From Thiomicrorhabdus arctica DSM 13458 (lineage in GTDB: Bacteria > Pseudomonadota > Gammaproteobacteria > Thiomicrospirales > Thiomicrospiraceae): a stretch of DNA of 64,000 bases. Of the stretch, positions 9,261-63,010 are shown one piece after another. A program made the translations under genes and the position numbers. Location: the NCBI RefSeq assembly GCF_000381085.1, contig NZ_KB905902.1, positions 82,419 to 146,418 of the forward strand, given 5' to 3'. Under the pieces are notes generated by a model. That model saw only the letters and a program-made list of their open reading frames with translations. It was not told where the DNA came from and ran no database searches. How positions within the stretch are numbered: the first letter of the stretch is position 1; each line of letters begins with the position of its first letter.

Positions 9261-9487
9261 AAATTAGATGTCTTTTGATTAAAGGTTTTTATCTTAAATT
9301 AGAAAAAGAGGCGATAACTTTTCATTACTTAAATGTATTCTTTTAGTATATATAACCTCTTCTTATTACTCTTGGTGAAGCTAACATCTGTCGATAAACT
9401 CATTTTTAACATGGATTTCAATACGTTATCTTGTGAGAAAGATGTGGGTATAGTATCTGACAAAGCGTGTGTGTAAGTGTGGGTGTT

Positions 9488-9554
9488 TTGTGGATAAAAA
9501 TAACAAAATGCTTATTATTGGATTTTATCCACAATTTAACACAAGTTATCCCAA
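9488..9554. promoter_or_regulatory. DnaA-box inverted repeat
   Basis: In the 380-bp space between oxyR and the nitroreductase gene, two perfect consensus DnaA boxes (TTATCCACA) face each other: 9489-9497 on the minus strand and 9525-9533 on the plus strand. They form a 12-bp perfect inverted repeat with a 23-bp spacer. Weaker matches (7 of 9) lie at 9546-9554 and 9443-9451. The rest of the gap is AT-rich without a gene. A DnaA-binding or titration site is the simplest reading. Confidence 0.5.
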
Positions 9555-9643
9555 GCCCTTATATGGAATTATTTAGGGGTTATTTAAATGATTATACGGC
9601 ATAATAAATGGTATTCAAAAAAACAAAAATTACAGAAGTCATT

Positions 9644-47092: not shown

Positions 47093-47647
47093 GTGACTGA
47101 AACAAGTATAAAACAGGCTGTTAATATTCTGCAAGCGGGCGGGGTGATTGCCTATCCAACCGAGGCGGTTTATGGATTAGGTTGTGACCCGTTTAATTTA
47201 CAAGCGGTTGAAAAGCTGTTTCACGTGAAACAACGCCCTGTCGAAAAAGGTGTGATATTAGTCGCCGCTTCTGTTGAACAGATCTCAACTTATGTCGAAC
47301 TGCAAGGCAGATCTTGGGAAGGTGAGGTATTGGCCTCTTGGCCAGGGCCGATGACTTGGGTATTACCTATCAAAACGACCGCTAATTTACCTGATTGGAT
47401 TACTGGGGGACGAAATACGGTTGCAATCCGAGTCTCTGCCCATCCGACAGTACAAGCCTTATGTCGCGCATTCGGTCAGCCGATTGTTTCAACCAGTGCT
47501 AATCTTAGCAATCAAACACCGGCCTCTTCATGTGCAGAAATCAAGCAGGTCTTTGAAGATTCAGTCTGGTGTTTAGAAGGAGAATTAGGTGATTTAATGC
47601 AACCGACGCAAATCAAAGAGGCATCAAGCGGTCAGATTCTGCGTTAG
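47093..47647 (+). CDS. tsaC: Threonylcarbamoyl-AMP synthase TsaC (YrdC/Sua5)
   Basis: A 184-residue YrdC-fold enzyme that makes threonylcarbamoyl-AMP from threonine, bicarbonate and ATP for t6A37 tRNA modification. YPTEAVYGLGCDPFN, FHVKQRPVEKGVILV, WPGPMTWVLP, AIRVSAHP and PIVSTSANLSNQ are the family blocks. It has a GTG start. It is short, as in E. coli TsaC, without the Sua5 extension. The KLFHVKQR codons contain a perfect parS site, so this conserved protein segment also serves as a partition site. Confidence 0.93.
   Translation: MTETSIKQAVNILQAGGVIAYPTEAVYGLGCDPFNLQAVEKLFHVKQRPVEKGVILVAASVEQISTYVELQGRSWEGEVLASWPGPMTWVLPIKTTANLPDWITGGRNTVAIRVSAHPTVQALCRAFGQPIVSTSANLSNQTPASSCAEIKQVFEDSVWCLEGELGDLMQPTQIKEASSGQILR
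47217..47232. other. parS chromosome-partition site
   Basis: The 16 bases TGTTTCACGTGAAACA match the canonical ParB/Spo0J-binding parS site exactly and form a perfect palindrome. It lies inside tsaC. A random perfect match in 64 kb is very unlikely. ParB-bound parS sites cluster near oriC, which agrees with recF and gyrB 10-16 kb away. Confidence 0.93.
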
Positions 47648-57998: not shown

Positions 57999-60782
<2,784 letters not shown>

Positions 60783-61912: not shown

Positions 61913-63010
61913 TTAGGACTGTAAGCTAAGTTGGCCTGAATCAATCGTCCAGACTCTGGTGGTCTCAGGATTGAGTATCGGAATTAAGGACGCTGAGGTG
62001 CTGGTGATGACGTGTTGGATATTGAGAATCTGTAACAGTTCTAATAGTTTTCGACGATGGGTTTCATCCAACTCGGCAGGCAGGTCGTCAATCAACATAA
62101 TGACCGGTTCTTGTAATACCTTTTCATGCAAACTAGCTTGGGCGAGCAGTAAGGCACAGACAAATAATTTTTGCTGGCCGCGGGACAAGGTATTCAGAGC
62201 CTCTTGTGTTCCAAACTTAAAGCGAATATCAGCACGATGGGCGCCATATTGCGTGTGACCTAAATGCGACTCTTTTTGATAGCTGTCGGCATATAATGCC
62301 AGCAAATCTTCGGTGGCTTTTGGCCAGCCTGCACGATATTGGCACACCACCTCTTCTTTAATCTCGGGCATTAAGGCTTGGCAAAACGTGATTAAGTATG
62401 GGGTTAGCCTTTCCAGATAGCGTTGACGAATGAGATCAATCTTAAGGGCATTCTCAACCAGGGTTTGATCCCACAGTTGCACTTGCACTTTTGGCAAGTG
62501 CCTTTTAAGCGCATAATTCCGCTGTTTAAGGCCTCGTTGATAATGACGCCATAAGGGCATAAATTCTGGGGACTGATGGAAGCAGCCCCAGTCCATAAAT
62601 TGACGACGGGCTTTTGGGCCCTCTTCTAGCAATTTATGACTTTCAGGGGTGAGCAGTTGTACCGGGAGGAGTTGCGCCAGTGCCGCTTGTGATTTAAGCG
62701 TTTCACCATCTAAACGTAATAACGTTTGCGTCAGGCTTTTTTGTAATCCTAAACGGTGCATTTTATGACGAGAGTGACTGGAAGTCACTTCGGCAAAAAG
62801 GGTGGAAGATTCAAAATCTCGCTGAATCAAATGCTGACTTTTGGCTGTTCTAAAAGAACGACCTGTGGCGAGGACCCAAATAGCTTCAATCAATGAGGTT
62901 TTACCAGCCGCATTATCACCGATAATTAAATTCAGACCCGCACTGAGATCACAGTGAAGATGGCCACAGTTACGAAAATTCTGAATGGAAATTTGGTTAA
63001 TTTGAGTCAT
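61913..63010 (-). CDS. recF: DNA replication and repair protein RecF
   Basis: A 365-residue SMC-like ATPase that loads RecA at gaps. Walker A is IIGDNAAGKTSLIEAIWVLATGRSFRT (split: GDNAAGKTS at 31-39). The signature is TLSRGQQKLFVCALLLAQA, and Walker B is VIMLIDDLPAELDETHR. It starts nine bases after the CDF exporter gene. In many bacteria recF lies in dnaA-dnaN-recF-gyrB; here the upstream neighbour is a cation exporter and gyrB is 1.5 kb downstream. Confidence 0.95.
   Translation of the reverse strand: MTQINQISIQNFRNCGHLHCDLSAGLNLIIGDNAAGKTSLIEAIWVLATGRSFRTAKSQHLIQRDFESSTLFAEVTSSHSRHKMHRLGLQKSLTQTLLRLDGETLKSQAALAQLLPVQLLTPESHKLLEEGPKARRQFMDWGCFHQSPEFMPLWRHYQRGLKQRNYALKRHLPKVQVQLWDQTLVENALKIDLIRQRYLERLTPYLITFCQALMPEIKEEVVCQYRAGWPKATEDLLALYADSYQKESHLGHTQYGAHRADIRFKFGTQEALNTLSRGQQKLFVCALLLAQASLHEKVLQEPVIMLIDDLPAELDETHRRKLLELLQILNIQHVITSTSASLIPILNPETTRVWTIDSGQLSLQS

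Follow-up and report, generated by a model that had tools for sequence, protein, structure and literature searches.

Sequence and reading frame of the site

The window, by which we mean the whole 64-kb stretch of DNA analysed, carries a gene for threonylcarbamoyl-AMP synthase, tsaC, on its plus strand (47093..47647), with a GTG start and 184 encoded residues. The protein is assigned by Pfam (PF01300, E = 1.6e-48) and by structure, its best solved-structure matches being E. coli YrdC (1hru and 2mx1). It consists of a Sua5/YciO/YrdC domain with a K-x-R motif, has no second Pfam family and lacks the SUA5 domain, which places it in the TsaC/YrdC family. Inside this coding sequence, at 47217-47232, lies the palindrome TGTTTCACGTGAAACA, which as a palindrome is assigned to neither strand. 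Its 16 bp agree exactly with TGTTNCACGTGAAACA, the parS consensus quoted for C. glutamicum in an excerpt of PMC7022226, where position 5 is given as N. The sequence-only reading had placed an exact consensus parS in the coding part of tsaC, and the window scan bears this out with 0 mismatches and in frame. It is the sole parS match in the window, even when 3 mismatches are allowed, where shuffled sequences lead one to expect 0.41.

Read in the tsaC frame, the site supplies the codons xTG TTT CAC GTG AAA CAx, which encode residues 42-47 as L-F-H-V-K-Q and are followed by R-P. The K46-x-R48 motif aligns with K-Q-R of E. coli YrdC, and from this correspondence we take K46 and R48 to be the active-site K-x-R that an excerpt of PMC10321239 names for ATP binding in the TsaC/YrdC family. 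E. coli YrdC belongs to the same family over residues 5-184 and shares K-Q-R-P, but it has LLELKQRP where the host genus has LFHVKQRP, and an exact parS cannot encode the E. coli peptide. Only two reading frames pass through an exact parS, one giving FHVK(Q/H) and the other VSRET, as the third contains TGA.

Conservation across the genus, family and class

TsaC was found in 61 of the 62 family genomes, comprising 31 of 32 from the host genus (the exception, with no TsaC match, is G038) and all 30 from six other genera; this family alone represents the order in the collection. At the class level, 351 of 369 genomes have a TsaC match, and the 67 class genes compared, all from outside the order, are the 28 best-scoring loci together with 39 chosen among the top-scoring matches listed, so that this sample leans toward the more similar TsaC.

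All 31 genus genes carry a parS-like 16-mer at the homologous codons, with 0 mismatches in 13, 1 in 12, 2 in 4 and 3 in 2. The site is absent from all 30 sister-genus genes of the six genera (4-9 mismatches) and from all 67 sampled class genes (5-11 mismatches). Likewise, a parS pattern set in its tsaC context and allowing up to 2 mismatches is found in 28 of the 62 genomes of the order, every one of them in the host genus. Within the genus, pairwise TsaC identity falls to 51% (median 64%), and the site has thus lasted through much divergence. The parS in tsaC is therefore a conserved feature of the genus and not a chance motif.

The protein differs at the same place. Residue 44 is histidine in 30/31 genus proteins, in 0/30 sister-genus and in 3/67 class proteins; residue 45 is valine in 31/31, 0/30 and 1/67, respectively; and residue 43 is phenylalanine in 25/31 (leucine in the other 6), 0/30 and 1/67. 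H-V together at 44-45 occurs in 30/31 genus proteins, in 0/30 sister-genus and in 0/67 class proteins, and the full F-H-V in 24/31 genus proteins and in none of the others. Since H-V at 44-45 is confined to the genus, gain of the site went together with changed residues. Directly beside them, all 128 TsaC rows have K46 and R48, and Q47 is common.

Synonymous constraint at the core of the site

Codons were redrawn with the amino acids held fixed, using the genus's own tsaC codon usage in 20,000 draws that treat the genomes as independent. The observed mean mismatch to parS is 0.84 versus 2.64 in the redrawn genes (lowest draw 1.87), and 25 genomes have at most 1 mismatch versus a redrawn mean of 4.7 (highest 13). 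The redraw takes no account of kinship, whereas counts of synonymous changes take some; these were made on a gene tree from which residues 40-49 had been excluded and which did not recover the genus. By this count, the H44 codon CAC and the V45 codon GTG have undergone 1 synonymous change each, the fewest among the conserved codons examined. For the 86 other conserved codon columns the mean is 10.6 changes and the minimum 2; among them, the other conserved valine columns (n = 12) have 5-16 and the only further conserved histidine column 6.

Constraint differs along the palindrome. Of the 31 genus genes, 29 retain the CACGTG core, which is altered in G039 and G043, and codon 42 ends in TG in 31/31, an ending shared by 48% of the leucine codons in these genes. 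The F43 codon, with 2 changes versus 3 and 4 in other phenylalanine columns, says little. Position 3 is C in 6/31 genes, position 5 is C in 3/31, and the K46 codon alternates between AAA (18) and AAG (13) with 6 changes, so that position 14 is unconstrained. Judged by eye, coupling between the palindromic positions 3 and 14 is unconvincing, with AAG in 4 of 6 rows that have C at position 3 and in 9 of 25 that have T. Apart from position 14, the site is thus conserved beyond what coding needs, and the synonymous codons that the sequence-only reading had suggested examining in relatives are indeed held at the core.

Number of gains

The genus forms one group in the ParB tree with support of 99/97, based on 19 genus rows of 30. 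In the free TsaC gene tree, five genus rows (L043 and L046-L049) fall outside the rest, which taken at face value would mean two origins of the site, or one origin with losses; a second TsaC tree likewise needs three label changes. Constraining the genus to be together gave a better TsaC likelihood, and a single clade was not rejected (p-AU 0.79). Two origins were set aside on the strength of this likelihood and of the ParB grouping, the ParB tree including one (G028) of the five outlying genomes. The simplest account, and most likely the correct one, is that the site was gained once, at the base of the genus.

The partition system and its other sites

The host genome (2.55 Mb, 6 contigs) encodes a single chromosomal ParB (TIGR00180, E = 1.3e-59) on contig C2, in the gene order rsmG-parA-parB. 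The ParB contains ParB_N, HTH_ParB and ParB_C domains by Pfam, its neighbour is a ParA-type ATPase, and rsmG is recognized as GidB. A cognate ParB with N-terminal, HTH and C-terminal domains therefore lies beside parA, and a ParB above cut-off was found in 62/62 family genomes. From the tsaC site the sequence-only reading had predicted a chromosomal ParABS system elsewhere in the genome and had let its claim stand or fall with parB; the system is where it was expected, outside the window.

The search for further parS copies was also productive. Three exact copies of the 16-mer are present in the host genome, and 7 sites have at most 1 mismatch, the tsaC site included. Six of these cluster near the origin on contig C4, the 176-kb origin contig that holds the window, while the seventh lies on C2, 27 kb from parB. 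The backwards control pattern has no match in the host genome at 0 or 1 mismatch and a single match at 2. Across the 62 family genomes it has none at 0 mismatches and, at 1 mismatch, one match each in three genomes.

Origin geometry

Both genes from which an origin region had been deduced are in the window on the minus strand: gyrB at 57999..60425 and, between gyrB and dnaN, recF at 61913..63010, the latter with a Pfam RecF/RecN/SMC N-terminal domain. By Pfam, dnaN and dnaA follow just past the window's right end (64122-66691 on the window scale). The tsaC site is 19.5 kb from dnaA.

On the other side, 38 kb from the tsaC site, is a spacer between a LysR-type gene and a nitroreductase-family gene (9261..9607, no strand; genes assigned by Pfam in the host) that likely is the oriC, displaced from dnaA. 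It contains two copies of the DnaA box TTATCCACA in inverted orientation with starts 36 bp apart (9489..9497, minus strand; 9525..9533, plus strand). Cumulative GC skew was computed over host contig C4, 400 kb of G025 and the first 100 kb of the other genomes. Its minimum lies away from dnaA in each of them, by ~52 kb in the host, 38 kb in G025, 30-36 kb in G027, 44 kb in G029, 35 kb in G051 and 52 kb in the sister-genus genome G008. The LysR-type/nitroreductase-family spacer is present in all six genomes at 33-57 kb from dnaA; its distance to the skew minimum is at most 2 kb in G025, G029, G051 and G008, ~5 kb in the host and 10-16 kb in G027. The inverted pair with starts 36 bp apart recurs in five of the six spacers, one of the G008 boxes being TTATTCACA, and in the G051 spacer a single box of the pair matches. 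The aligned spacers have further box-like and AT-rich blocks in common. A competing candidate for oriC is a cluster of DnaA boxes directly upstream of dnaA, seen in the host and in G025.

In the five genus genomes of this comparison, the interval from dnaA to the spacer contains no parS-like site at up to 1 mismatch other than the one in tsaC (which in G051 has 2), and the next parS sites are found 13-16 kb past the spacer. The corresponding interval of G008 has none at this tolerance. Other genus genomes have more sites that appear to be on the dnaA side, such as the one in a YigZ-like gene of G022, G023 and G046, whose side we infer.

Search for canonical SMC

ParB-parS usually serves as a loader of SMC. 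The best TIGR02168 match in the host genome scores 25.5 bits versus a cut-off of 567, with all 38 candidates scored, and at E 1e-30, with 9 candidates scored in each, none of the 32 genomes of the genus yielded a canonical SMC. With the same model, none was found in the 49 genomes of the genera labelled g1-g4 and g7, some of which are incomplete, and one was found in all 13 genomes of g5 and g6, 11 of them over cut-off. DUF3375, presumably MksF, occurs in 9/62 family genomes and is absent from that of the host. With no canonical SMC detected in the genus, SMC-ScpAB loading is an unlikely function of the tsaC parS, and ParA-driven segregation of the origin is most likely the role of the site. 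In the midpoint-rooted ParB tree, the rows sampled from g1, g3 and g4 cluster together (100/98), so that loss of SMC seems older than the tsaC site.

parS-like sites in other genes of the family

Further parS neighbourhoods, 46 from 18 genomes chosen among the matches listed, hold 47 sites with at most 1 mismatch. Thirty-four of these lie within open frames 60 or more codons long, with 15 read in the FHVK frame and 19 in the VSRET frame, and 13 lie between such frames; the frames were called mechanically, and some of the shorter ones, though few, may be spurious. The peptides vary slightly from site to site, and FHVE, FHMK, ASRET and VSHET also occur.

When grouped by similarity, the site-bearing proteins comprise the N-terminus of an M3-peptidase (prlC-like; 5), a DUF58 protein (5, one in genus g3), a protein without a Pfam match (5, two in g3), a UPF0029/YigZ-like protein (3), another protein (3) and a pair (2), Pfam having been run on a single representative of the first four groups each. 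Orthologous genes with an intragenic parS-like site that reads FHVK/FHVE or VSRET include L001, L005, L007, L238, L245, L261 and L270, among others. For the DUF58 protein and the protein without a Pfam match, some of these orthologous sites are common to another genus.

Discussion

We consider that the 16-mer in tsaC probably is a working chromosomal parS, close to the origin and loading ParB, and would put the probability of this reading, argued from sequence, at roughly 0.9. By analogy with established ParABS biology, the ParB encoded beside parA on the other contig would bind the tsaC 16-mer, load there as a CTP-dependent clamp and spread over the adjacent origin-proximal DNA, after which ParA would segregate the origin region. 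The site would have arisen once inside tsaC, at the base of the genus, in a gain accompanied by the replacements x44H and L45V and, for the most part, L43F, next to the invariant K46-x-R48; purifying selection at the DNA level would have kept the core of the site since then.

The order in which the DNA site and the residues appeared is a separate question, and either order is compatible with a working parS. F-H-V could have been selected first for enzyme function, the resulting sequence being exapted later as a parS and only then held by selection on the DNA. The present rows do not reveal the order of events, which we can only infer, and each residue does occur without parS in the class proteins, H44 alone in three and V45 and F43 in one each. 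However, H44 and V45 are found jointly in the genus only, and parS-like sites in unrelated genes of the family read FHVK-like or VSRET-like whatever the protein, as expected if the DNA dictates the residues. An enzyme-first order is accordingly the less favoured one, though it keeps an appreciable minority chance.

The site might instead be mainly a local regulator of tsaC that acts through ParB spreading rather than through segregation. An excerpt of PMC5521831 reports that raised ParB potentiates repression at promoters beside parS3 and parS4 of P. aeruginosa, but parS-like sites occur in many unrelated genes across the family, and in the complete genomes listed they are mostly near the origin, which makes regulation a very improbable main role. 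The weakest alternative, that the enzyme needs LFHVKQRP and its codons happen to spell parS, draws on the invariant K46 and R48 and the common Q47, which leave few changes to make a site, but we reject it as scarcely credible on the conservation and codon tests, given that H-V is restricted to the genus, that synonymous positions are held far past codon usage and that the site is one of a cluster of parS sites in a genome with parAB.

If the working parS is accepted, the observations can be joined into a tentative history, to which we would give somewhat less than even odds. After SMC had been lost, the genus ancestor may have gained a parS in tsaC, between dnaA and a displaced oriC, and selection on the DNA, favouring the loading of ParB to this side of the origin, may have driven and then held two to three replacements beside K-x-R. 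The centromere would in this sense have written part of the enzyme, and intragenic parS would more generally leave an FHVK(H/Q)-like or VSRET-like signature at conserved places in unrelated proteins.

One stretch of DNA would then have two duties, as a segregation site and as codons beside an active-site motif, and tsaC would offer a clean natural case of this. As one genus has retained the site and none was found in its sister genera, what the site costs the enzyme and what it brings to segregation should be separately measurable. If the lack of SMC is confirmed, the genus would also be a natural test of ParB-parS without the condensin that it usually loads.

Intragenic parS as such is already known, and the tsaC site is a further example. 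P. aeruginosa, according to an excerpt of PMC4368675, likewise has ParB palindromes near oriC and inside genes, with 9 of 10 parS predicted to lie within coding sequences, but here the host gene is tsaC. Caulobacter crescentus also has parS in essential or costly genes near ori (PMC5815017, main text), although the words 'coding' and 'synonymous' have 0 occurrences in that main text, and a treatment of coding constraint was not found there. A literature search, its scope leaving out most subscription papers, returned no report of a conserved intragenic parS or of synonymous constraint on one. What appears to be new, in that we did not find it in print, is retention across a genus together with residue replacement beside an active-site motif.

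Wider scans leave room for parS in tsaC elsewhere. At up to 3 mismatches, the tsaC-context pattern matches 3 of the 369 class genomes, two of them members of the genus and the third G324. The G324 match was rejected as a parS in tsaC, as its gene has a RecF/RecN/SMC domain and is recF by reading. This recF-like gene (L320, G324:C327, 630-1700) encodes two FHVEH peptides, one of them from a parS-like site with 1 mismatch that is apparently an intragenic parS in recF. A parS scan of contigs from named genomes gave at least 120 stretches, with many Streptomyces among the first 80 listed, and none of the 120 listed has a TsaC match at E 1e-3. The best weak TsaC match among these 120 is in L187 (4648-6576), the mnmG of Anaerotruncus colihominis, which has a VSRET peptide at a site that fits the parS pattern.
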